From IMG/VR virus record IMGVR_UViG_3300022929_000098, positions 1-34,249 of that record: a stretch of 34,249 nucleotides of DNA; one strand, written 5' to 3'. The position numbers were made by a program, and so were the translations under genes. Shown one piece after another: positions 5,925-29,347 of the stretch. Source of the stretch: a virus. Position 1 is the first letter of the stretch. Each line of letters starts with the position of its first letter. The notes below the pieces were generated by a model. It searched no databases, was not told where the DNA came from, and worked only from the letters and a program-made list of their open reading frames with translations.

Positions 5925-7043
5925 TTATGAGTGGAAGATTGGCAAGATGCCCAAGTTCAGAGCATTCATTTTACGGCCCCAAGAAGCAGCAGCAGCATAA
6001 GTTGCGTTTGTTGCAAAGGCGTTTGTTGCGCCTGACCAGTCATAACCCATTGGGTGCATGATAAAGCCATAACGATACCAAATGTTAGTTGAACCACCAC
6101 CAGTGTAAGAAGCCGCATCACGGTCTACTTCAACAGGAGTTGGAACACTTACGGGTGCGTAAGTTACTGAAGCTGGTTTAATCAAGAAAGAACATTTAGT
6201 TGATTGAGCATTCAAGTCACCTGAAGCAGCACCAGAAATCATTTGGTTTGCACGAGTCATTACCAAACGGAATTTTCCACCAAATACGGTTTGGAATTCA
6301 AGGTTGCCATCTTGTACACGAGTTTCGTCTACTAGGTTAGCCGCACGCATTTCTGCCATAACTTCTGGTGAAGTTACAAGATACATAAAGTCTGGTTCAT
6401 AGTCTTTGAAGCCCATACCTAATGCTTTAAACAAACGCTCACCACGAGCAGCGCCTGTAGCAGTAGAGTCAAACAATGGGCGAGCATCTGAAGAACCTGT
6501 TGCAGCTGCACCAAATTCACCAAGAGCGTTAACGTCTACAAAGTGACCAGTTGCAGCAGCATCCCCATCTGTATCAAATGCAGTGTAACCACCGTTACCT
6601 GAACCACCTAGATCACCAAGAGTAACTTCGCTTAGTGCTACACCTTTAAGGCAAGACAACAAAGCATTACCCTCATCGTCACCACGTACTTGTGCAAAGT
6701 CACGAGCAATTTTAGCAAGACCATCTTGCTTTGAAATTACTTCTTGCAAGTTAACTTGTTGCGCACCAAATGTACGAACAGTCTTGATGTAATCTGAGAT
6801 ATCAGTTGTGATATCGGTGTATGTACCATCTGTTGCAGAAGACAAAGAAGCAACGTTAATGTTTGCTGCAAGTGGTTGATACCAACGGAATTGACCTGTA
6901 AAGGATTCTCCGTTAGCGTTGATGTCATCACGTTGTCCTACAATACCTGATGAGTTTAGTTTCTTTTCAGTAGTGTAAGCTTCGTCTGCATAAGCAGAAA
7001 TAGCCAATGCTACATTTTGAAAGTCTGTATTTGTAATAGCCAT
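5925..7043 (-). CDS. Major capsid protein
   Basis: 372 residues, Ala/Gly/Thr-rich, with a good SD (AAGGAAATATAAG) before ATG 7043. It follows the scaffold gene and precedes the adaptor, the fixed place of the capsid gene. Segments that fit a HK97-fold capsid protein are an N-terminal helical arm (ITNTDFQNVALAISAYADEA), a beta/E-loop region with FTGQFRWYQPLAANINVA, a long central helix region (SKQDGLAKIARDFAQVRGDD) and a late strand FMYLVTSPEVMAEMRAANL. That last pattern is typical of capsid P-domains. It should be the most abundant virion protein. No prohead protease gene lies next to it, so maturation may not need cleavage or the protease may be elsewhere. Confidence 0.85.
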   Translation of the reverse strand: MAITNTDFQNVALAISAYADEAYTTEKKLNSSGIVGQRDDINANGESFTGQFRWYQPLAANINVASLSSATDGTYTDITTDISDYIKTVRTFGAQQVNLQEVISKQDGLAKIARDFAQVRGDDEGNALLSCLKGVALSEVTLGDLGGSGNGGYTAFDTDGDAAATGHFVDVNALGEFGAAATGSSDARPLFDSTATGAARGERLFKALGMGFKDYEPDFMYLVTSPEVMAEMRAANLVDETRVQDGNLEFQTVFGGKFRLVMTRANQMISGAASGDLNAQSTKCSFLIKPASVTYAPVSVPTPVEVDRDAASYTGGGSTNIWYRYGFIMHPMGYDWSGATNAFATNATYAAAASWGRKMNALNLGILPIFHS

Positions 7044-7074: not shown

Positions 7075-7749
7075 TTAATAATTGAAACTACCTAGTTGTC
7101 CTTTTGCAGCAAGATTTAATACTTCCTGTGTTGACATTTCACTAAGTGCTTTCTTTTCATTAGTATTAGAAACACCTGCTGGTGTTGCCGTTCCTGCTCC
7201 TGAGTTAGCTTTAACTCGAAACAAGAAAGAATTATCTTCATTACTTGAGTAAGAGGTAATAAAGTCTTGAATAGTAGTTCCTGACTTATGAACCCAACTA
7301 CCGTTTTCATTCTGAACAAGTTGCTCAACAATATCACGGTAAGCTAGTTGACGACTACGATCATTTCGGAAATCTAAACCACTAAGCAATGAATTAACAA
7401 CGCTATCTCGATTTAACTTAGTATTTTCTTCTTCGTAGACTTTTAGTTTAGCTTCAAGATCAGCAATTTTCATTTCTGATAACTCTTGAAGTTTTCCTTC
7501 TTCTTCTAGCCGCTTCATCGTTTCTTGTTTTTGTTGTTGTTCGATTTCAGCAGCTTTCTTAAGAGCTTCGTCTCGCTCTTTAGCCATGCGGTCAACATTA
7601 GACTTCATTTTAGCAAGTCTATTGGCAACCTCTTGTTCAATTGGATCAACACTGTCAGATGTTTCCTCTTGAACAGTTTCTTGTTCATTAGTCTCATTGG
7701 ACTCTTTTTCAGTTACTTCTTCTTCAATTACTGTATTTTCTTCACTCAT
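7075..7749 (-). CDS. Capsid scaffold protein
   Basis: 224 residues. The first ~35 residues are strongly acidic (EENTVIEEEVTEKESNETNE). Residues ~35-110 form a charged heptad-like coiled coil (RLAKMKSNVDRMAKERDEAL, MKIADLEAKLKVYEEENTKL). The C-terminal third is less structured and ends AKGQLGSFNY, a small basic/aromatic tail as used by scaffolds to contact capsid protein. Composition, length and position immediately before the major capsid gene are classic for a phage scaffold (often annotated DUF4355-like). It should be removed from the head during maturation. The ATG at 7749 follows AAAGGAAAATATT. Confidence 0.8.
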   Translation of the reverse strand: MSEENTVIEEEVTEKESNETNEQETVQEETSDSVDPIEQEVANRLAKMKSNVDRMAKERDEALKKAAEIEQQQKQETMKRLEEEGKLQELSEMKIADLEAKLKVYEEENTKLNRDSVVNSLLSGLDFRNDRSRQLAYRDIVEQLVQNENGSWVHKSGTTIQDFITSYSSNEDNSFLFRVKANSGAGTATPAGVSNTNEKKALSEMSTQEVLNLAAKGQLGSFNY

Positions 7750-7833: not shown

Positions 7834-10800
7834 CTATGGCCCGATACCATACCAGTCCTGCCCGTCTTTAAGCGGGGCTAGTATGTCTTTTCTTGTTATT
7901 TTATTAGGAGGGTCAATAAGACCCTGATCTTTAGCTTCTTTAAGAAGCCTTTGGTAAGTTCTATAAGACATTCCTTGTCTGCGCATTTCTTTAAGGGTTT
8001 TTCTTATAGTATCGCCTTCTAGGGCATCTGCATAGATGGTCCTTAAAGCATCTTTTGCACGTCTTGCTTCCCCTATATTAGTAAAGAAAGCATCGTGAAT
8101 TGTTCCACTGTCTACGTTATTTTTACGCGCCCATAAATGAAAGCGCCTAACTATAACAGCATCGTTACTGTGGTTTCCATTAACACCTAACCCAATTCTA
8201 GCATCATTAAGAGAGCCTTTACCTAAAAGCTTTCCATCTTCAGCACTAGATTCGTATATGTTAGATATTTTTCTGTTTGTAACCGGATCTCTAAATTCAA
8301 TACGCTCTTGAATTTTAGGACGGTATCTTTGTGTCATTATTTTGCCATCAAATGTAACCCACGGAATATCAACTTTTTGAGTTTCTTCAACGTAGGCTTT
8401 AGCAACTTGTTTCCAATAGTTAATAAAGTTATCAGTAACAGGCGCTCTATCAGCAAGATTTTTAGACATAATTCTAGATATTTCTGAGAACTCTTTTGGT
8501 CCAATAATGCCTCTACGAGCATTAGTAAGCTTGTTAACAAAATCACCAACATCAGGATGTATGTCTTGAGCTTGTTTTAATAAGGTACGACCAACAGGTT
8601 CGTTTTTATTAATTAATTCTACAAGTTCATTTCTAAAGCTTTTAAGTTCTTCTACTGTACCTGTAGCACCTAGCCGTTCAGCTACTTTAATTTTACCATC
8701 AACAACTCTAAGATTAGCCCCTAAGTTATCTTTAGTAACTGTTATAAAGCCTTTTTCGTCAAGTACTTTAGACAGTTTATTAGCCACGTTAGCGGTTTTC
8801 GTAGCAGCTCCAGCACCATAAAATGATACCATGTTTTGAGCTTTGGCTGCTTTAGCAAGATCTTCCCATGTAAGATTAGCATCTCTGAGTGCAGGTATTT
8901 TAAGAAATTCTGGGTCATTAACTGTATCCATTGCAACTAAGTCATAAAGACGATTTTTTTGAGTTGTAGCTAAAACATTTGAAGCTTGAGAAACTGCTCT
9001 GTCTCCCGTAGAAAGCCCTATGATTTGAGCTCCACTAGATGAAGCATCATTTTCAATCATAAGTTTTGTTTTATAGCTAGTTATAGGTTTACCCTGTTTA
9101 AGGTGTTTATCAATTCGAGCATATTCAATTGCCATTCTACCCATTTTAGGTACTTCTGGACCTTCTAGACCTCTTATTAATGGATGCTCAAGAAACTCTC
9201 TAAGACGTCTGTCTCTTTGAGTTTTAGACATCATAATATTACCTAACTCAATAATTTTAGCTTCATTGCGATTAAATATAGCATTACGCCCTGCCTGAGT
9301 AAGAGCCTCAGTTCCTGGACCGATTAATGCCCCTATTTGAATTCTAAGCTCATCTAAAGCTTCAGTACTCATATTAACAGCTTTTCCTGAATTAAGAAAA
9401 GGTCTAACTAATTCACCGCCCGTAGGTGTAAGATATCCTCTGTGATAAACTCGACCTCTAGAATCAATAAACGCTTGAGTCCTAAAATTTTTCCCTCTCT
9501 GAGCATGATACTTAGCAGTAGACATAAGTCCATAGCCTTGTTCTCCTCGATTTAAAATTTCATGACGAAACTCATTAATACTGTCATAGTATTTAGATTG
9601 CCCTCTTGGATCCCTGAATCTAGCAATATCATCCATAAACCCGAAGAACTCGTTATCAACTCCATATTCAACATCCATTACATGATTAAGCATTTGTGCC
9701 ATTTCACGATCAATTTGTTTTTTATCGTAATCCGGAAATTTATCTCTAGAAATTAAAGGTATTCCTGTTTCATTACCTCTAGCATCTACATATGTCTTTT
9801 TGTTAGCTTTTACATAAAGCCGATCTCTATCGTAGACAGTTCCAAGCCTTCTAGCAATAGTAACTTTACGCTCTGCTTCTTGAAGTTTAAGTAATGTTTT
9901 ATCTACAACAATTACTTCTCTAGAAATACTGTCTGCCCAACCACCAGAAGCCCTGCCTGTGTCTAAGTCTAAAACACCTCTACGAGTTTTACCTCTAAAT
10001 TGAACTTTAATAAGACCTTGATCTACCATAAAGTCGAGTATTCTAGATCCTTCTTTATGAAAGTCTTTTAAAGTATGCTTAGTAAAAGGTATAATATTTT
10101 CAAAGTCTTTAGAAAATCTTTTTCCTATATTAATAGCTAAAGTATCATAATCAGTAGACTGGCCTGATGCAACTAACTTAGTAATATTAGTTAAACTATC
10201 TAAAGCTTTTTCATCAAACAACTTAGAAGTAGGTTTTTTATTTATAATTAAAAACTCAGCATCTAAAAGCCTACGTATAGTTTCTCTATTACGGGCAGCT
10301 AGTTTAGTAATCAAAGAATCAGAAGGTTCAGTTACTAACTTTTGTAATTTTAAAAGTTTAGCAAAACCAGAGTCTTTTTTTAATTGTTTAATAAGTCGTT
10401 TTTTAGTAGGATACTTATCAGTAAATTTTTTAAAATAAATTCTTAATGGCGCTCGTCCTTTAAAAAACATTTTAGTAGCTAATTTTTTACCTTCAGTTCT
10501 ACGCCATGCGTCAATATATCGTTGATCTTTTAATTGGCTATCAATTAAATTTTCGAAAGTATAGTACTTCCCCATGATTTGAACTTGAGGTTTATCTTGA
10601 GACAAATAACTAACAAACATTTCAGAACGTTTACGTGATCGTGTATCTAATAGCCTAGAAACGTTTTGTACAGCAAATCTATTTTCTGCTCTTAACACTG
10701 CAGCAACATCATTCCAAGGTTTTTTATCTTTTGCATAACGTTCAAATACGACTCTTAAGTTTTCAATTACAACAGTTTGTTGATTAACTGAAATCTTATC

Positions 10801-12189
10801 GTCTAATCCTGCTGCAATGCTTTCAATAAAATCTTTTTCATCTTGTTTGAGAAGCTTAGAGTTACGCATAAAATCAATACGTTCTTGATACAAATTAAAG
10901 TCAGGATCATAAATGTTATTGTTTTTAATTTCACCTGTTAGTGGATCAGCACTAAAATTACGTTCATCAAACTCATTACCCACCCTACGCCTAGAAGCAG
11001 TTTTTCCTGCAAGGCTAGTACCTTTATAGTCTGTTAAAGACATGGTTTTAGAGTAGTCATCAGCATCAAGTAAAAACATTTGCCTTACTAAAGCTTTTTG
11101 TTCTGGTGAACGTATCATAGAACTAGGGCGTTTAGCTTGAATATCTACTGCTTGCTCTCTAAGCTTTTGCTTAGGTGCAAATATAGCAGTAGCATTAGTA
11201 GCTTTATTTCTTAAAGCTTGAATAGACAGTGCTTTACCTTTAGGTGTAACATATTGCTCCGCTTTTAGTTTGCCTTGCCTAAATAAATTAGCTTGATCCA
11301 TGCCCCCAAGAAGTTTAGATTGAATATCAAACGCTTGACGTTTTAACCATGCTCCGTAAGATTCTACTTTAGGTGCAACACCTGAAAGCGATTCTTCTTT
11401 CTTTTTTGCAAGGTTTGTTTTATTAAGCCTACTTGTAGTTTCTTTCTGAAGTTCTTCTTTAGACTTTAAGACAGGCACCAAAGAACTACGGCAATTCCAA
11501 TGCAAAGGGGGAGTAAAGCGTCTATCACTAACATCATAAATCTTTCCATTATGATAAGAACAAATAGGGCTAGTACGACTATCAAGCACAGCAGTAAAAA
11601 CATAGCCTTTTACTACATGAGAGTTTGCTTTTACAACTTTGTTTAAGGCTGCAGTTTGAGTGCTTGTTATAGAGGTTCTAGTTAAAGTTTTAGCTTGATG
11701 CTCCGTAAGCTTAGTAGTTTTAAGAACGTTATTAATAATATCTTTAGGCGCTTCGCCTTTAGCAAGTCCTGCTTTTACTTTAGATTGTATTCTAACAAGT
11801 TCACCTGCTGAAATGTTTTTAATGTTTTGAGTAACTGTTTTAACACCTTTAATGTTTTGTCCAGTTATTTCAGCAAGTAATTCTTTACTACGTGGCTTTG
11901 ATACCTTATAGAATTTATTAAGTTCTTTGTTTAGATTGTCCGAATGAAAGTCCAGTTGAGACGTTGAAAATTCTTTTAGAGAGCTAGTCTGATGAGTTAA
12001 CATTTCTCGACCAAAACGATTTATTTCAGGAGTAACATCATTAGTTAATCTTTCTGACAATATATCTCTAAGCCTTTTTCTATGCCTACGCATAATACGT
12101 TTATTTTGTAACTGAACACCCTCTTCGTATAGTCTTACGTCAGTCATGTGATCGACAATACGATCATAAAGTTTTAAATTGATATCCAT
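7834..12189 (-). CDS. MuF domain - single-subunit RNA polymerase fusion, putative virion RNA polymerase
   Basis: 1451 residues; ATG 12189 follows GGAGTACTAG. Residues ~150-240 match Mu F / SPP1 gp7 head proteins: RTSITSTQTAALN, FTAVLDSRTSPICSYHNGK, then PPLHWNCRSSLVPV (Cys210, His213, Cys233). Residues ~240-440 are a linker I do not recognise. From ~440 on it is a T7/N4-type RNA polymerase: DSRGRVYHRGYLTPTGG (909-925, like T7 DWRGRVYA), motif A DASSSGAQ (Asp1048), motif B KAQNMVSFYGAG (Lys1116, Tyr1124, Gly1125, same Lys-Tyr spacing as T7 Lys631/Tyr639), GVNGNHSNDA before motif C, and IHDAFF (His1365, Asp1366). Both catalytic aspartates are present, so it should be active. The position between portal and scaffold and the MuF module suggest it is packaged in the head and injected. 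The domain calls are secure; delivery is inferred. Confidence 0.93.
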   Translation of the reverse strand: MDINLKLYDRIVDHMTDVRLYEEGVQLQNKRIMRRHRKRLRDILSERLTNDVTPEINRFGREMLTHQTSSLKEFSTSQLDFHSDNLNKELNKFYKVSKPRSKELLAEITGQNIKGVKTVTQNIKNISAGELVRIQSKVKAGLAKGEAPKDIINNVLKTTKLTEHQAKTLTRTSITSTQTAALNKVVKANSHVVKGYVFTAVLDSRTSPICSYHNGKIYDVSDRRFTPPLHWNCRSSLVPVLKSKEELQKETTSRLNKTNLAKKKEESLSGVAPKVESYGAWLKRQAFDIQSKLLGGMDQANLFRQGKLKAEQYVTPKGKALSIQALRNKATNATAIFAPKQKLREQAVDIQAKRPSSMIRSPEQKALVRQMFLLDADDYSKTMSLTDYKGTSLAGKTASRRRVGNEFDERNFSADPLTGEIKNNNIYDPDFNLYQERIDFMRNSKLLKQDEKDFIESIAAGLDDKISVNQQTVVIENLRVVFERYAKDKKPWNDVAAVLRAENRFAVQNVSRLLDTRSRKRSEMFVSYLSQDKPQVQIMGKYYTFENLIDSQLKDQRYIDAWRRTEGKKLATKMFFKGRAPLRIYFKKFTDKYPTKKRLIKQLKKDSGFAKLLKLQKLVTEPSDSLITKLAARNRETIRRLLDAEFLIINKKPTSKLFDEKALDSLTNITKLVASGQSTDYDTLAINIGKRFSKDFENIIPFTKHTLKDFHKEGSRILDFMVDQGLIKVQFRGKTRRGVLDLDTGRASGGWADSISREVIVVDKTLLKLQEAERKVTIARRLGTVYDRDRLYVKANKKTYVDARGNETGIPLISRDKFPDYDKKQIDREMAQMLNHVMDVEYGVDNEFFGFMDDIARFRDPRGQSKYYDSINEFRHEILNRGEQGYGLMSTAKYHAQRGKNFRTQAFIDSRGRVYHRGYLTPTGGELVRPFLNSGKAVNMSTEALDELRIQIGALIGPGTEALTQAGRNAIFNRNEAKIIELGNIMMSKTQRDRRLREFLEHPLIRGLEGPEVPKMGRMAIEYARIDKHLKQGKPITSYKTKLMIENDASSSGAQIIGLSTGDRAVSQASNVLATTQKNRLYDLVAMDTVNDPEFLKIPALRDANLTWEDLAKAAKAQNMVSFYGAGAATKTANVANKLSKVLDEKGFITVTKDNLGANLRVVDGKIKVAERLGATGTVEELKSFRNELVELINKNEPVGRTLLKQAQDIHPDVGDFVNKLTNARRGIIGPKEFSEISRIMSKNLADRAPVTDNFINYWKQVAKAYVEETQKVDIPWVTFDGKIMTQRYRPKIQERIEFRDPVTNRKISNIYESSAEDGKLLGKGSLNDARIGLGVNGNHSNDAVIVRRFHLWARKNNVDSGTIHDAFFTNIGEARRAKDALRTIYADALEGDTIRKTLKEMRRQGMSYRTYQRLLKEAKDQGLIDPPNKITRKDILAPLKDGQDWYGIGP

Positions 12190-12215: not shown

Positions 12216-13787
12216 TTATTCCTCAATATCTATCTGAGGATCGGCGCTATTTTGTACTGCTAGCGGATCAGTTTGTATTTCTTCAATTGCTTCTTCGTCA
12301 CTATAATCAGCAGGTAAAAAGTCATTGTATTTAGCAATGTTAATCCAAGTTGAACGACTAATAATTCCTGACTGATACCATTCAGAAACAAGACGCATAG
12401 CACCTTCACCGCCTACAATTGGAGAGAAGTCACTAGACATTTGGAATTCAATGTCATCGCCTGTATACATAGTATTGTAATACCAGTTAAGCATAAATGC
12501 CATTACTTCACGAATAGTACCTGATACCTTAGCATTAAGTGTACCTAGCTGTGCTGTTTGAGAAGCATTACGGATTTCTAGTGCTACACCCGAAGCTGCT
12601 TGCTCTGGTGAGAGCATTCGAATACCCATCTTAGCCATTTCTTCTACTGTGCCTTGAATAGCTTTTTCCATGTCAGCTAAAGCTGAAGTAGGTGTTTCAA
12701 GTACAGTGATAGATTCATCTTTACGTACTCTTAACCAAGTACCTAACCCTGCATTTACAATGTCGTCAAATTCCTCGTCTGTCATATCTGATTGTACAAC
12801 AGGGGTATAAGTAGCAGCACCGTAAAGCAGGTGATTTCGTCTTGATACTTTATTGTAAAGAGAAACTTCTCTATCAACAAGAGGCATAAGAACAGGTTCA
12901 ACTGGTTCATACTGACCATTAAGAGGCCAAGCAGGAATACGCATTAAACGTTCACCAAACATAGTTGGATAAACTGTATTGACTTTTGTAAAGCCTATTT
13001 CACTAACTGATTCTTTGTATTCTTGTTTAATGTCACCATTAAGAACTTTAATTTCATTGTTAGTATCTGGGTGTTCATAGTAGTCTAATACTAGTCTTCC
13101 AGATTCATCAATGTAATGATCACAAACTGTATCTACATAGTCAGGATGCCAAGGATTTTCTGGTTTATATTTTTCTACTAAGTAACGAGTAACCCAACGA
13201 GTTAAAGTCTTTTGGCGTGTAATAGGATGAGTAGATAACTGAATGTTAATAACGTTTTCAGCTTCAATTACTACTGGATACGGCTTAATCATAGCACGTT
13301 CTTCAGGAGTTAAATTGTCGTACTCTTGCTCGCTAACTTGAGGTCTATCTACATAAACCCAAGCTCTTGATGTTTGAAGTTCTTCCCAGAGAGCATTATC
13401 AAGAAAGTTAAACAATGATCTACCGTCTAGAGTAAAATCATTCTTAAGCCATTCTTTAGCATCATCTGGTAGTTCTTCAGGTAACTTTAAATGAGAGTCT
13501 TTACGCAATAAAGCGCTAATAAGTACTTTACAGTATTGAGCAGTCAAGCCTGGAAGTTCTGACTCTGAACGATAAAAATCATATTGCTTTTGACTCATAC
13601 TAGGAGAAAAAGGAATAAGAAGGTTTTTATATTCTGCTTCTAAATACTCATCGTGAGCTTTAACGTTATCTTGTCCTTGTAGAACCGCCCTTGACCGTTT
13701 CCAAAGTGGTTTCAAAGAATGATAACTTGCACTTGGATCGGCAACAGACTTTTTAACACTTTTAGTTGGTTTAGTTAACTGTGCCAT
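12216..13787 (-). CDS. Portal protein (DUF4055 family)
   Basis: 523 residues. The N-terminal YHSLKPLWKRSRAVLQGQD, RSESELPGLTAQYCKVLISA and LDNALWEELQTSRAWVYVDR match the DUF4055 portal family common in marine siphophages and podophages. The later LMPLVDREVSLYNKVSRRNH and MLSPEQAASGVALEIRNASQTAQL correspond to the stem and helical wing regions. Twelve copies form the vertex through which DNA is packaged and ejected, and MuF proteins bind it from inside the head. The SD AAAGGAAAATAAATA precedes ATG 13787. It lies directly before the MuF-polymerase gene. The usual terminase large subunit gene upstream of the portal is missing here. Confidence 0.9.
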   Translation of the reverse strand: MAQLTKPTKSVKKSVADPSASYHSLKPLWKRSRAVLQGQDNVKAHDEYLEAEYKNLLIPFSPSMSQKQYDFYRSESELPGLTAQYCKVLISALLRKDSHLKLPEELPDDAKEWLKNDFTLDGRSLFNFLDNALWEELQTSRAWVYVDRPQVSEQEYDNLTPEERAMIKPYPVVIEAENVINIQLSTHPITRQKTLTRWVTRYLVEKYKPENPWHPDYVDTVCDHYIDESGRLVLDYYEHPDTNNEIKVLNGDIKQEYKESVSEIGFTKVNTVYPTMFGERLMRIPAWPLNGQYEPVEPVLMPLVDREVSLYNKVSRRNHLLYGAATYTPVVQSDMTDEEFDDIVNAGLGTWLRVRKDESITVLETPTSALADMEKAIQGTVEEMAKMGIRMLSPEQAASGVALEIRNASQTAQLGTLNAKVSGTIREVMAFMLNWYYNTMYTGDDIEFQMSSDFSPIVGGEGAMRLVSEWYQSGIISRSTWINIAKYNDFLPADYSDEEAIEEIQTDPLAVQNSADPQIDIEE

Positions 13788-14178: not shown

Positions 14179-14197
14179 TTCTTAAACGTCAGGTATT
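14179..14197 (-). promoter_or_regulatory. Candidate phage RNA polymerase promoter, copy 2
   Basis: AATACCTGACGTTTAAGAA, identical over 19 bases to the copy at 14271-14289 and in the same orientation, pointing at the portal operon. With the following G the core CTGACGTTTAAGAAGA matches the SP6 promoter core GTGACACTATAGAAGA at 11 of 16 positions. It also shares AATAC with the T7 promoter. Single-subunit polymerases use compact promoters of this kind. The enzyme-promoter link is an inference. Confidence 0.5.
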
Positions 14198-14270: not shown

Positions 14271-14289
14271 TTCTTAAACGTCAGGTATT
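14271..14289 (-). promoter_or_regulatory. Candidate phage RNA polymerase promoter, copy 1
   Basis: Same 19 bases AATACCTGACGTTTAAGAA as at 14179-14197, 92 bases apart. Its first base is the last base of the holin stop codon. It is followed by AT-rich DNA and the hairpin at 14256-14230. Two exact copies in a 200-base gap cannot be explained by coding constraint. I found no third full copy in the window. Confidence 0.5.
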
Positions 14290-23709: not shown

Positions 23710-24393
23710 TTATAACTTCTCTTTAATAAACATTCTTACTAGATCTGCTACGATATCACTACGCACAATATCGTCTACTGTAAATTTAACTATTGGTAAC
23801 GGTATACCGTTCTTTTTAATTAAAGCACAAAACCTTAATAAGTCTTGACCTTTTCGCACATCTGACTGTGCTGGGTCTCCCATAAGTACTAACTTAGAAT
23901 TTTCCCCTAAACGAGTACTAATTGCTTTAAGCTCATCAATCGAAAGGTTTTGAGCCTCATCTACAAGTACTAAAGAGTTCTCGAAAGAACGTCCTCGTAT
24001 TGTTTCAATAGGTTGAATTTCAATGTCACCTTTATTAATCATGTACTTATACTTTTCTTTACCGAAAGCCCGTTCAAATACTTCGAGCATAGGTAAAAGC
24101 CAAGGTGTCATTTTTTCTTGGATAGTTCCAGGGAAATGCCCTATGCTTTTACCTGTAGGTACGTTAGCACGAGTAATTACAATTTTCTCATAACCGCCTT
24201 TTTGGTAAAGATGTGCGACCGTTCCTGCGCTGCAGTAGGTTTTTCCGGTTCCAGCGCAACCAATAGTAACAGTAATAGGATAGACTTTAATAGAGCGAAT
24301 GAGTTTATCTTGCTTTTCATTCTTTGGTATAACATGAAATCCTATCCTGTGTATATTATTTTTAGTAGCATAACGAGATTTTCTTTTGCTCAT
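23710..24393 (-). CDS. phoH: PhoH-like ATPase
   Basis: 227 residues. Walker A GCAGTGKT (45-52) and Walker B LVLVDEAQN (141-149) are present, together with the PhoH signatures IVITRANVPTGKSIGHFPGT, ETIRGRSFENSLVLVDEAQN and KLVLMGDPAQSD. The C-terminal FTVDDIVRSDIVADLV is the usual end of phage PhoH. It is an ATP-binding, helicase-like protein of the SF1 group, often induced by phosphate limitation in bacteria. Its phage role is unclear, possibly RNA metabolism. It is common in marine phages, where it is used as a marker gene. Position inside the tail region, between two small genes and the distal-tail block, is unusual for an enzyme gene. SD AAAGGACTCTT. Confidence 0.95.
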   Translation of the reverse strand: MSKRKSRYATKNNIHRIGFHVIPKNEKQDKLIRSIKVYPITVTIGCAGTGKTYCSAGTVAHLYQKGGYEKIVITRANVPTGKSIGHFPGTIQEKMTPWLLPMLEVFERAFGKEKYKYMINKGDIEIQPIETIRGRSFENSLVLVDEAQNLSIDELKAISTRLGENSKLVLMGDPAQSDVRKGQDLLRFCALIKKNGIPLPIVKFTVDDIVRSDIVADLVRMFIKEKL

Positions 24394-24886: not shown

Positions 24887-27800
24887 TTATGCGTTTTCTA
24901 GGGCAGTGATCCGTGCCTCTAGGGTTTCAATCCGATCCATTGCCTCTTGCAGTGCTTTGACTGCTTTCATGTAGAGGATGGAGTATTTTACCGACTTGGT
25001 TGTTGTGCCAAGATCATTGTTGTCAGCATCTACGTCTGGGGTTTCTTTGATCAACCCAGACATTCCTGCCGCTTCAATTTCTTGGGCAATTACACCAATA
25101 CGCCAATGTTCATCACTATCACCCTTTTCAAGAACATCCGACTTCATTTTATACTTACGGACATTTAGAGCTTTGATGTCATCCCATTGGCTAGAAGCGT
25201 CTATAATCTGTTCTTTTAACTTTGCGTCAGAAATTGCGCCATAGCTGTTATCCGCATTTACAACATCGCCATCGGAGTAAATAATAAGCCTTTCGGCTGA
25301 TGTATCTTGGCATTTTAAGAAGTAGTTTGAATTATTATCTGGCGCTGCGGCATTAAAATACACAAAAAGGCCATAAGGACTTGCGTTTGAGCATTCCATT
25401 CTAGCAGTTGCTGCCGCCGAATACTCAAAGACAGGACGACCTCCATTAACCCCATCAAACCACAACCTAGGATTACCATCCCCATCCGACAGCACGATGT
25501 TGTTGCTTGAGGTGCGGATGTCCAAGCCGCCTTGGTTGCCGCCGTAGCGTCCAAGGATGGTGTTGTTTTGACCTGTTGTTACATCAACACCTGAATTGTT
25601 ACCAATAAAGGTGTTACCATTTGCGGTTGTCACGTTATATCCCGCTCGTCTACCAACAAAAGTATTCGCTGCTGCCGTTGTTCCGCTATACCCAGCCTGA
25701 TACCCAACTGCCGTGTTGTTGTCTGCGGTGGTGTTTAAATGTAGTGCATTATGGCCTATGCCTGTGTTACTGGAGCCAGTGGTATTGGAAACCAGAGCAT
25801 AACCAACAGCCGTGTTGTTAGTGCCAGTAGTGTTATTGTAAAGTGCTTGTCGGCCTAATGCTGTGATAATAGTACCAGTAGTATTACTATACCCAGCTTG
25901 ATACCCTACCGCAGTGTTGTTGCTTGCTGTGGTGTTAGAAAATAAGGCACGATTACCTAAAGCGGTGTTTGCTGCACCTGTTGTGTTATAACGAAGTGCA
26001 TATGCGCCAAGGGTTGAGTTGTTATCGCCTGTCGTAACATATGCGGAATTATGTCCAACAAACGTATTTTGAACAGCGGTGGTATTGCTATATCCTGCAC
26101 GAATACCTACAGCAACCAAACCCCCAGTTGTAGTAGAATAACCCGCACTTTCTCCCAATAAAGTTACTTCACCAGTAGTGACACTATACCCAGCCTGATA
26201 CCCAACAGCAGTGTTACTGCTAGCGGAGGTGTTGTTATATAAACTCTCAAAACCAACAGCTACATTGTTACTGCCCGAAGAATTAAGGCGCAGAGCCTCT
26301 TGTCCAAGCGCAGCGTTGTTGTTGCCTGTCGAGGTGTTACGCATAGCCAGTTTACCTACAGCGGCGTTTTGGCTACCTGTTGTTAGGCTCAACATACTTT
26401 CACGACCAACGGTGGTGTTACCAATGCCTGTTGTAATATTGCGACCTGCAAGTGAACCTACAGCCGTATTCTCATAACCAGAAGTAACGTCTTCTAGTGC
26501 ATACTCACCTACAGCAACCTGACCACCAGCAGTAGTGTTGTTGTAAGCCGCACGATAGCCAATCGCTGTGTTTCCGCTGGCGGTGGTGTTGTTTAGCAGT
26601 GCTGAGTGGCCCATAGCCACGTTGTTTGCACCTGTCGTGTTTTCATACATAGCACGATAGCCAACGGCAATGTTTAGACCACCAGAAGTCGTATCATTCA
26701 TTGCCTGATAACCAACCGCAACGTTCTGACCTGAGTTTGACTTGTCTAGTGCATGGCTACCAATGGCAACGTTATAGGATGCAGTTGAGTTAGCTGTTAG
26801 TGCAGCATAACCTAAACCAACGTTATCTAGGCCTGTAGTATTCGCATCTAAAGAGTTTCTACCGACAGCTACGTTTTGATTACCTGTCGTATTGCTTAAT
26901 AATGCAGTAGCCCCAACAGCGGTGTTGCTTGTACCTGTAGTATTTTCTTGTAGTGCAGAGTTTCCTAAACCTGTGTTAGTAGAAGCTGTTGTGTTTTTAT
27001 AACCTGCACGTTGCCCCATAAAAACATTTGATCCACCAGTAGTATTAGCATACCCAGCCTGATAACCAACAGCAGTGTTGTTGCTGGCGGTGGTGTTGTT
27101 TTCAAGTGCTGATTGCCCAACCGCAACGTTATTATCTCCTGTTGTGTTGTTAAACATCGCATCACGACCCAACGCAGTGTTCAGTGTGCCTGTTGATGTG
27201 TTGTACATTGCCTCTGTACCAACAGCGGTGTTTGTACTTGTTGTAGCATTTCTAAGGGTGTTGTATCCAATCGCTACATTTTTTGGGCCTGTAGTTAGTA
27301 AATACCCCGCACGGTACCCAACGCTCGTGTTGTAAGACCCAGTATTGACAGAAAGAAGTGCTGAGTGACCTACGCCTACGTTAAACTGACCTGTAGTGTT
27401 GCTTTGTAAAGAACGGTTGCCTACAGAAACAAGATAGCTACCTGTTGTGTTTGAGTTTGACGACAAATCTCCAACTGCCACATTCTCAAAGCCTGAAGTA
27501 TTGTTTGTAAGTGACCTCGCACCTAAAGCGGTACTGTAACTGTCACTGTTGTTTGAATAAAGAGCTTGGTATCCAACTGCTGTTAGAAGCTGACCTGCCG
27601 TGTTAGCATGTAAAGACTGATGACCAACCGCAACGTTACTACCGCCTGTGGTGTTAGCTTCAAGAGCCTGTGCGCCAACAGCTACGTTATAAGTAGCGGT
27701 GGTCTGATTATACAAAGAGTTTACACCAACAGCTACGTTGTTATGCCCTGTCGTAATGTCCAACATGGCGGCATAGCCAACAGCCGTGTTGCTTGATGCG

Positions 27801-29347
27801 GTTGTAGCAGAACCTAGGGTATCCATACCCAAGGCGGTGTTATAGCTACCCGTGGTGTTAGAGAGCATTGCGGTACGACCAACAGCAACGTTTCGTACCC
27901 CAGTAGTATTGGCTTTTAAAGAACCTTCACCAACCGCCGTGTTTCTGTTACCTGTGGTATTAGCAACCATAGCTGAACGACCAACAGCAACGTTGTATGA
28001 GCTTAGGTTGGCTTTAAGCGCACCTTCACCTACTGCAACGTTCTCCAAACCAGATACGTTTGCTTCCATCGCCTGAAAACCGATAGCGGTGTTATAACCA
28101 CCTGTGGTGGTGTTTGTCATAGATAGACCGCCTACTGCGGTGTTGTAATTACCAGTGGTCAAATCGTTTAGTGCACTGCGTCCAATAGCGATAGCATCGC
28201 CGCCAGTGTATACACCCGTTTTTAGTGCATCACGACCAATAGCAACTGCATTAGTACCTGTGGTTGTTGCAGCCATTGCGCTATCACCAACCGCAATATT
28301 TCCTGAGCCGCTAAAAGACCCATCGCTCAGGGCATTATTACCTAACGCCACATTATCTGTGCCTAAAGGATAATTCCCATCCAGCTTAATCGTGCCGCCA
28401 TCGACTGACAGCCCATCGCTGGTCAAAGTACCCGTGACTACGGTGTTCCCTGCGCTGTTTATTTCTAGTCTGTCTGCCAGAACACCATTTATAAGCGTCT
28501 GGAAGTGGATAGAACCATCTTCAGATCCGTTGTTGGTCTGATCTGCGACACTGTAAATGCTTGCAAACGTGTTTGTAGAGCCAACTGTATCTTCGCCTGT
28601 AAATGTAATTTGACCAATTAAGTCGCCGTTAGTTCCTGTGCCAGAGTTTCTCCAAAGGTTTAACTGAGGGCCAACTAAAGCGTCCGTATCTGTAGAGATT
28701 AAGGTAACTTGTGCGTTATTATCAGCAGTTGTAAAAGTGCCTGTCCCATCTACAGTTAGCCCATCGCTGGTCAAAGTACCCGTGATATTGACACCGCCGC
28801 TTTCTGTGGCGAGTTTGGCTGCGTTGTCGTAATAAAGGGTTACTGCACCATTAGAAGTACCGTTTAGTATATTTTCACCAGTCGCAGTTTGAATGCGAAC
28901 ATCTGTGCCTTGAAGGTATAGAGAACCTACCCCGCCCTCTTTGACATATGAACCTGACCCATCATGGTAAATCTGTAGGTCAGACCCTGCGCCGAAGATG
29001 GCTTTGTCGCTATCGCCGAAGGATACGTTACCAGTAACACTACCACCAGTAGTCATTAAGGCTCCTGCAGCAGTTACGTTAGTTGTATCTGTTACATCTG
29101 CACTAGCTTCAATACCATCTAGCTTAGTACCATCAGCCGCTACATCACGACCATCTACTGTACCTGTAGCTGCAATATTACCATTAACAGTTAATCCTGC
29201 AGTTGTATAAGTTTCAGTTTCATCTAGCTTAGCTGCAGTTACTGCATTATCCGCTAGCTTGTCTGTAGTAACAGCAGAGTTTTCTATTTCTGCAGTTGCT
29301 ACTGTAGCATCAGAAATAAAGTCTGCTAAGTTTCTTGCTTTAGTCAT
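24887..29347 (-). CDS. Giant tail fibre with ~40 YadA-like repeats and a C-terminal S74 chaperone
   Basis: 1486 residues. The N-terminus TKARNLADFISDATVATAEI is the typical 'LADfi' start of phage fibres. From ~residue 330 to ~1265 (nt ~28370-25530) about 40 repeats of roughly 23 residues, pattern N.AVG..AL..NTTG, form a trimeric YadA-head/Hep_Hag-type beta stalk. The C-terminal 114 residues are a peptidase S74 intramolecular chaperone: YGAISDAKLKEQI with the predicted autocleavage before Ser1373, then WRIGVIAQEIEAA and a terminal coiled coil (KALQEAMDRIETLEARITAL). The chaperone trimerises the fibre and is then removed. The fibre binds the host receptor. GC content is clearly higher than in the head genes. 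Confidence 0.92.
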   Translation of the reverse strand: MTKARNLADFISDATVATAEIENSAVTTDKLADNAVTAAKLDETETYTTAGLTVNGNIAATGTVDGRDVAADGTKLDGIEASADVTDTTNVTAAGALMTTGGSVTGNVSFGDSDKAIFGAGSDLQIYHDGSGSYVKEGGVGSLYLQGTDVRIQTATGENILNGTSNGAVTLYYDNAAKLATESGGVNITGTLTSDGLTVDGTGTFTTADNNAQVTLISTDTDALVGPQLNLWRNSGTGTNGDLIGQITFTGEDTVGSTNTFASIYSVADQTNNGSEDGSIHFQTLINGVLADRLEINSAGNTVVTGTLTSDGLSVDGGTIKLDGNYPLGTDNVALGNNALSDGSFSGSGNIAVGDSAMAATTTGTNAVAIGRDALKTGVYTGGDAIAIGRSALNDLTTGNYNTAVGGLSMTNTTTGGYNTAIGFQAMEANVSGLENVAVGEGALKANLSSYNVAVGRSAMVANTTGNRNTAVGEGSLKANTTGVRNVAVGRTAMLSNTTGSYNTALGMDTLGSATTASSNTAVGYAAMLDITTGHNNVAVGVNSLYNQTTATYNVAVGAQALEANTTGGSNVAVGHQSLHANTAGQLLTAVGYQALYSNNSDSYSTALGARSLTNNTSGFENVAVGDLSSNSNTTGSYLVSVGNRSLQSNTTGQFNVGVGHSALLSVNTGSYNTSVGYRAGYLLTTGPKNVAIGYNTLRNATTSTNTAVGTEAMYNTSTGTLNTALGRDAMFNNTTGDNNVAVGQSALENNTTASNNTAVGYQAGYANTTGGSNVFMGQRAGYKNTTASTNTGLGNSALQENTTGTSNTAVGATALLSNTTGNQNVAVGRNSLDANTTGLDNVGLGYAALTANSTASYNVAIGSHALDKSNSGQNVAVGYQAMNDTTSGGLNIAVGYRAMYENTTGANNVAMGHSALLNNTTASGNTAIGYRAAYNNTTAGGQVAVGEYALEDVTSGYENTAVGSLAGRNITTGIGNTTVGRESMLSLTTGSQNAAVGKLAMRNTSTGNNNAALGQEALRLNSSGSNNVAVGFESLYNNTSASSNTAVGYQAGYSVTTGEVTLLGESAGYSTTTGGLVAVGIRAGYSNTTAVQNTFVGHNSAYVTTGDNNSTLGAYALRYNTTGAANTALGNRALFSNTTASNNTAVGYQAGYSNTTGTIITALGRQALYNNTTGTNNTAVGYALVSNTTGSSNTGIGHNALHLNTTADNNTAVGYQAGYSGTTAAANTFVGRRAGYNVTTANGNTFIGNNSGVDVTTGQNNTILGRYGGNQGGLDIRTSSNNIVLSDGDGNPRLWFDGVNGGRPVFEYSAAATARMECSNASPYGLFVYFNAAAPDNNSNYFLKCQDTSAERLIIYSDGDVVNADNSYGAISDAKLKEQIIDASSQWDDIKALNVRKYKMKSDVLEKGDSDEHWRIGVIAQEIEAAGMSGLIKETPDVDADNNDLGTTTKSVKYSILYMKAVKALQEAMDRIETLEARITALENA
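25530..28370 (-). repeat. Coding tandem repeats of the fibre stalk
   Basis: About 40 imperfect units of about 69 bases encode N.AVG..AL..NTTG-type repeats. Frequent variants are NTAVGYQAGY.NTTG. The DNA of neighbouring units is very similar (for example the CCAGCCTGATACCCAAC blocks), so length change by recombination or slippage is likely. Confidence 0.85.

Follow-up and report, generated by a model that had tools for sequence, protein, structure and literature searches.

The DNA analysed here is a viral fragment of 34,249 bases from IMG/VR (record IMGVR_UViG_3300022929_000098, hereafter the window), and the gene under study occupies positions 7834 to 12189 on its minus strand, stop codon included. 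It is a single open reading frame (ORF) of 1451 amino acids with an ATG start, and the opposite plus strand across the same interval is full of stops. The core of a MuF head protein domain (Phage_Mu_F, PF04233) was located at residues 134-237 (11479-11790, minus) with a Pfam E-value of 1.8e-14 and 54.8 bits against a curated cut-off of 29.6, and PHROGs revealed a head morphogenesis match (phrog_241) over residues 55-334 (E 3.8e-50); when the predicted model of the MuF part was compared with the Protein Data Bank (PDB), helical bundles were the sole matches, an uninformative result. A linker region at residues 261-540 (10570-11409, minus) is followed, from about residue 541 to 1451 (7837-10569, minus), by a T7-type single-subunit RNA polymerase (RNAP) with an N-terminal domain and palm, fingers and thumb, as judged from the predicted structure, PDB matches and profile comparison. 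Here, Pfam detected RNA_pol (PF00940) at residues 1034-1415 (E 3.3e-7, 29.9 bits, cut-off 22) and PHROGs an RNA polymerase (E 4.6e-24). A MuF head domain and a complete T7-type RNAP are joined in one polypeptide. An earlier sequence-only reading had described this 1451-codon frame without stating the strand, and ORF, Pfam and PHROGs results bear it out: every motif it quoted was found at the quoted residue, and both domains for which it had proposed a profile search scored over the curated cut-offs.

The structure prediction that it had also proposed, carried out for residues 430-1451 (mean predicted local distance difference test score, pLDDT, 79), matched T7 RNAP including palm and fingers, with a Foldseek E-value of 1e-19 and a VIA Z-score of 31.2 (root-mean-square deviation 3.5 over 523 residues), the match covering palm, fingers, thumb and N-terminal domain. 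Mitochondrial RNAPs followed with Z 27.7, and the virion RNAP of coliphage N4 with Z 17 (VIA). The polymerase profile revealed a probability of 98.7% (E 2e-16) against a T7-type set in hhalign, but of 0.4% against seven N4-type virion RNAPs (vRNAPs). The fused enzyme therefore resembles T7 and mitochondrial RNAPs more closely than the virion RNAP of N4, and since membership in the N4 vRNAP family was ruled out by the profile comparison, only the first half of the original label "T7/N4-type" can be retained.

All T7 motifs align in register with the fusion polymerase. The sequence DSRGRVYHRG (residues 909-918; 9436-9465, minus) corresponds to the DWRGRVYA motif of T7, DASSSGAQ (9025-9048, minus) with the catalytic Asp1048 to DGSCSGIQ with T7 Asp537, the O-helix K1116-x7-Y1124-G1125 (8815-8844, minus) to T7 K631/Y639, and IHDAFF (8083-8100, minus) with the catalytic Asp1366 to T7 Asp812. 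Conservation was counted over 100 sequences, namely 99 complete relatives and the window protein, and D909, R911, R913, D1048, K1116, Y1124, G1125, H1340, H1365 and D1366 proved invariant in all of them, so that the two catalytic Asp, K-x7-YG and the HD of motif C, by which the family is recognised, are present in 100/100. The ratio of nonsynonymous to synonymous substitution rates (dN/dS) indicates strong purifying selection on the polymerase core, its values of 0.02-0.09 being equal to or below those of MuF (about 0.09-0.11).

At least 537 homologues of the fusion were found in IMG/VR. The relatives form two clades with proteins of about 1450 and 1540-1570 amino acids, displaying ~32% identity over the whole length. 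The survey suggested by the sequence-only reading returned 99 complete relatives with the same architecture; because they share it and the key residues are invariant, the joining of MuF and RNAP is not due to chance, and an assembly chimera is ruled out by 99 complete copies in independent contigs and by two cultured phages. These are the roseophages DSS3_VP1 and DSS3_PM1, with a full-length homologue of 62% identity (QGH74596.1 in DSS3_VP1); EBPR siphovirus 1 (ESV1, JF412302) carries a homologue of the second clade with about 29-32% identity. Among 84,980 bacterial and archaeal genomes, the fusion occurred on a single contig of a metagenome-assembled genome, which speaks against a prophage or cellular gene family; the group therefore looks strictly viral. 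The nearest contig, G001, encodes a protein 98% identical to that of the window and contains both RNAPs and both motifs described below. Together with the homologous structural module, in which the fusion protein has 62% full-length identity, these two RNAP genes, arranged as in DSS3_VP1, agree with the Naomviridae, the window itself being a 34-kb fragment.

Split fusion genes are mostly caused by introns, and joining their exons restores an intact enzyme. The ESV1 gene has a group I intron (L002:23179-24042; Rfam E 1.4e-8) with an HNH endonuclease within the active-site motif of the O-helix, at KAQNMV|TFYGAG, and the same break recurs in five or more further relatives, with the homologous site in L139, L140, L163, L192 and L203; in L171, L180 and L182 the gene breaks elsewhere, ahead of YDEIA. 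Four contigs (L078, L097, L103 and L204) display frame breaks at differing places, which may be assembly errors. Some relatives carry additional sequence. An extra domain of ~130 amino acids (NVTIFGESHTRKN...) lies between MuF and RNAP in L071, L057, L106, L114 and L127 (residues about 249-385, insertion point near residues 249-257), and is possibly a second cargo. An insert of ~150 amino acids (GELFHISTVPLT...) was found in L173, L177 and L196 near window residue 1033, just ahead of the catalytic Asp of motif A, which is in frame, unlike the intron sites. Neither the L071 nor the L173 insert was matched by Pfam.

Each of the 12 contigs with a length of 59 kb or more encodes, apart from the fusion, a canonical T7-type RNAP of about 720-770 amino acids, with insertions in some cases, and the intergenic regions of DSS3_VP1 revealed two repeated motifs. 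The first, ATASSTKACGTTWAAGA, is T7-promoter-like and sits ahead of late genes; a search of 15 clade-1 contigs found it in every one, with very few copies off the coding strand. In the window it takes the form ATACCTGACGTTTAAGA at 14180-14196 (minus), with a second copy at 14272-14288 (minus) in the intergenic stretch preceding the portal-MuF operon, and the motif search gave three matches at up to two mismatches, compared with 0.06 expected from shuffling. The second, early-class motif reads AAGTGAGAAAANNAANGCATCTATAATGA in the clade of the window, where two or three copies, always on the coding strand, are present in each of the 10 clade-1 contigs covering the segment, and none in reversed controls; in the DSS3_VP1 record, copies lie at about positions 35,820 and 36,265. 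The sister clade, clade 2, displays GCGNNAAANNNGGTATCTTATATGA in the corresponding place in 9/9 long contigs covering the segment, again exclusively on the coding strand and with no occurrence in reversed controls, and both consensus sequences can be aligned without gaps at about 17 of 27 positions in our own alignment.

In 18/18 contigs that cover the segment, with one to three copies each, all 38 copies of the early motif counted are on the strand of the second RNAP gene and 1.7-7.5 kb upstream of it, a count that omits some additional copies at other places in clade-2 genomes. When all 2.9 million IMG/VR contigs were scanned with the motifs, the exact clade-1 form occurred in 57 stretches, all of them (57/57) with genes of the fusion lineage, and the clade-2 form in 80, of which 72 carried lineage genes, the other 8 being mostly short. 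About 30 contiguous bp are conserved, including GTGAGAAAA, and a -35 box (TTGACA) is not apparent beside the motif. Counting at positions close to the defining ones is to some extent circular, but this does not apply to the flanks (AAAAAA before, TGATA after) and the positional bias. In 74% of clade-1 cases, the motif is directly followed by a hairpin with 6 bp or more, as compared to 9% in a control stretch and 2% after shuffling, while the stem sequence varies, as would be expected of a transcript 5' end; for clade 2 the signal is weak (22% vs 13%). Clade-2 proteins also contain 83-109 additional amino acids after window residue 1272, immediately ahead of the segment that aligns with T7 W727 and the specificity loop, and this insert is a candidate for what lies behind the differing early motif of that clade.

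On these grounds, we hold with good confidence that the fusion is a virion RNA polymerase which is carried by its MuF part and starts the infection. This is based on the second RNAP together with the early motif, on the MuF precedents (SPP1 gp7 and cargo fusions) and on the logic of Thermus phage P23-45. The long, lineage-specific, promoter-like element, in which a -35 box is not apparent, suggests a phage enzyme that is available from the outset, and the fused RNAP would be its reader, because the genomes encode no third phage RNAP and the early genes, including that of the second RNAP, precede the second RNAP. We infer packaging, injection and promoter recognition as follows. The MuF part would bind the portal oligomer, as with SPP1 gp7, and thereby bring a small number of copies into the procapsid; on infection, the fusion protein would enter the cell along with the DNA and start transcription at the early motif (AAGTGAGAAAANNAANGCATCTATAATGA or, in the sister clade, GCGNNAAANNNGGTATCTTATATGA). 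The early genes would include the stand-alone T7-type RNAP, which would then transcribe the replication and structural operons, including that of portal and MuF-RNAP, from the second motif (ATACCTGACGTTTAAGA). It had been proposed that the phage transcribes its genome without host polymerase; the data would fit this for the early genes but not for the whole genome, the rest of which has a second, stand-alone T7-type RNAP, and the host enzyme may also take part.

As a probable virion polymerase, the fusion represents a new form of a strategy known from N4 and P23-45. The N4 virion RNAP (gp50, Schitoviridae) is packaged and transcribes early genes, with a second RNAP acting later (PMC4496689), and it shares the single-subunit RNAP fold (VIA Z 17). 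However, it comprises about 3500 amino acids in a podovirus and has no MuF fusion, whereas the window protein has 1451 and stands among siphovirus-type tail genes, and the sequence profiles of the two show no significant alignment. A further difference is that the promoters of N4 are hairpins upstream of the start. In P23-45, the siphovirus vRNAP gp96 is fused to a structural protein, the pre-early genes include a non-virion RNAP (nvRNAP) and two promoter motifs are used, a logic confirmed at the bench (PMC10770324). In contrast to the present case of a T7-type RNAP on MuF, gp96 is a two-barrel RNAP related to cellular enzymes and fused to the tape measure; in the window the fold is T7-type and the tape measure is separate.

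As for the carrier, the portal recruits SPP1 gp7, the prototype, into the procapsid (PMC6316719), and MuF fusions are regarded as likely vehicles for taking cargo into cells (PMC6316719, PMC5512222). Such polyvalent proteins and MuF toxins resemble the fusion in combining a capsid-targeting MuF carrier with a C-terminal enzyme (PMC5512222, PMC6316719), but their known cargoes are toxins and effectors, and virion RNAP modules have been reported in N4-like phages only, not with MuF (PMC5512222). Full-length homologues in DSS3_VP1 and DSS3_PM1 (Naomviridae, Noahvirus) are, like that of the window, placed after the portal gene and accompanied by a stand-alone T7-type RNAP and both motif classes; they are annotated merely as "minor head protein-like", with no RNAP function noted. 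The ESV1 gene, differing in its intron-interrupted O-helix, is annotated as head protein, HNH and hypothetical. No description of a MuF-RNAP fusion was found in the literature, subscription journals being mostly outside the search. We consider it probable that this is a third independent way to package a phage RNAP, combining a T7-type enzyme with the portal-binding MuF, a dedicated promoter class that has diverged across two deep clades and a hand-over to a second T7-type enzyme with its own promoters, so that infection would proceed in two steps by T7-type polymerases, the first of which could do without host RNAP.

Several points weigh against a virion polymerase. That the early motif would be read by the MuF-RNAP rather than by another enzyme is deduced from timing and conservation only, and a protein of ~160 kDa would have to be passed through a siphovirus tail. 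The 54-kb partial record of ESV1 shows neither the second RNAP nor the early motif. The equivalent of T7 Arg627, a substrate-binding residue, is Ala1112 in the window and in clade 1 (61/100) and Arg in clade 2 (39/100). The claim that no catalytic residue is missing was therefore slightly too strong, holding for the main catalytic residues, which are invariant, and failing for this one; Arg627 is an accessory feature on which family membership was not judged. Finally, the clade-1 early motif contains TATAAT, so it could be a host-polymerase promoter.

This last point belongs to the alternative that fares best, unlikely as we consider it: the host RNAP would read the early motif with TATAAT as its -10 box, the second RNAP would follow, and the MuF-RNAP, though active, would be made late and act in late transcription or packaging. 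The position of the fusion gene in the late structural operon, with late-type motifs ahead, is in line with such a course. A simple -10 box hardly matches about 30 contiguous conserved bp with no apparent -35 box, however, and clade 2 has TTATAT in the stretch corresponding to TATAAT; the motif is also confined to the fusion lineage across IMG/VR, and joining the enzyme to a portal-binding head protein would be of no obvious use unless it were packaged. We regard it as quite improbable that MuF and RNAP are parted by proteolysis or an internal start, leaving MuF alone in the virion and the RNAP free in the cell: processing of head proteins exists in some phages, and the frame breaks of the four contigs mentioned above fall between or within the two parts, but such breaks are rare and at differing places, as assembly errors would be, the window shows no noticeable head protease gene, and the single frame is kept in 99/99 complete copies. 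A structural or relic polymerase domain, that is, a large MuF extension lacking catalysis, could appeal to the Ala at the Arg627 position in clade 1, but is the least credible of all in view of the ten invariant residues in clades only ~32% identical, the low dN/dS of the core and introns in O-helix codons, a location typical of essential active sites.

If the virion polymerase is real, the small set of virion RNA polymerases gains both a novel carrier and a novel kind of enzyme, and the principal unusual head gene of this lineage, which has at least 537 IMG/VR members, is accounted for. Such an enzyme also suggests that MuF proteins carry replication-starting enzymes besides toxins. DSS3_VP1 on Ruegeria pomeroyi offers a cultured system for a direct test, with the candidate promoter sequences named above, and T7-type polymerases with new promoter specificities would be of practical use.

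The genes surrounding the fusion, all on the minus strand, follow the order that would be expected of a siphovirus structural operon. The portal protein gene (12216-13787; phrog_145, E 3.2e-52) is the next one upstream, and in the window and DSS3_VP1 alike the fusion lies between the portal and the scaffold and coat genes, here the scaffolding protein (7075-7749; phrog_206, E 3.7e-13) and the major head protein (5925-7043; phrog_247, E 1.9e-28). Exactly one MuF gene was present in each of 13 genomes checked. Head-tail connector, tail terminator, major tail and tape measure genes follow, the last of these (3-2684; PF20155, E 2.9e-49) being cut by the window end and a separate gene with no RNAP match; the siphovirus tail presumed by the sequence-only reading is thus reflected in tape measure, tail terminator and distal tail genes of siphovirus type.

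A link of the fusion lineage to DNA containing deoxyuridine (dU-DNA), which DSS3_VP1 and DSS3_PM1 possess (PMC12697855), was dropped, because the HD family of the deoxythymidine monophosphate (dTMP) phosphatase was found in only 2/16 contigs and the deaminase family over the cut-off in only 4. HD/YfbR-like proteins of this family are encoded at G017:C1:56880-57341 and MN602266.1:40070-40624; in DSS3_VP1 this gene is located in the interval from the early motif to the second RNAP, and the family is absent from most other contigs. DSS3VP1_00064 (MN602266.1:46619-47248), conserved near the stand-alone RNAP gene in 14/15 contigs, has no Pfam match, and with no match to Pfam HD it was ruled out as the dTMP phosphatase.

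The terminase large subunit gene of DSS3_VP1 is itself interrupted by a group I intron (L001:3960-4176; Rfam 93.9 bits) between two ORFs that are both annotated as terminase. In the window, a protein of 1486 amino acids (24887-29347, minus) contains dozens of GNxAVG..A(L/M)..NTTG repeats and looks like a tail fibre; its C-terminal end (SDAKLKEQI...) resembles an intramolecular chaperone domain. A PhoH-like ATPase gene (23710-24393, minus) lies within the structural region, as it does in DSS3_VP1.

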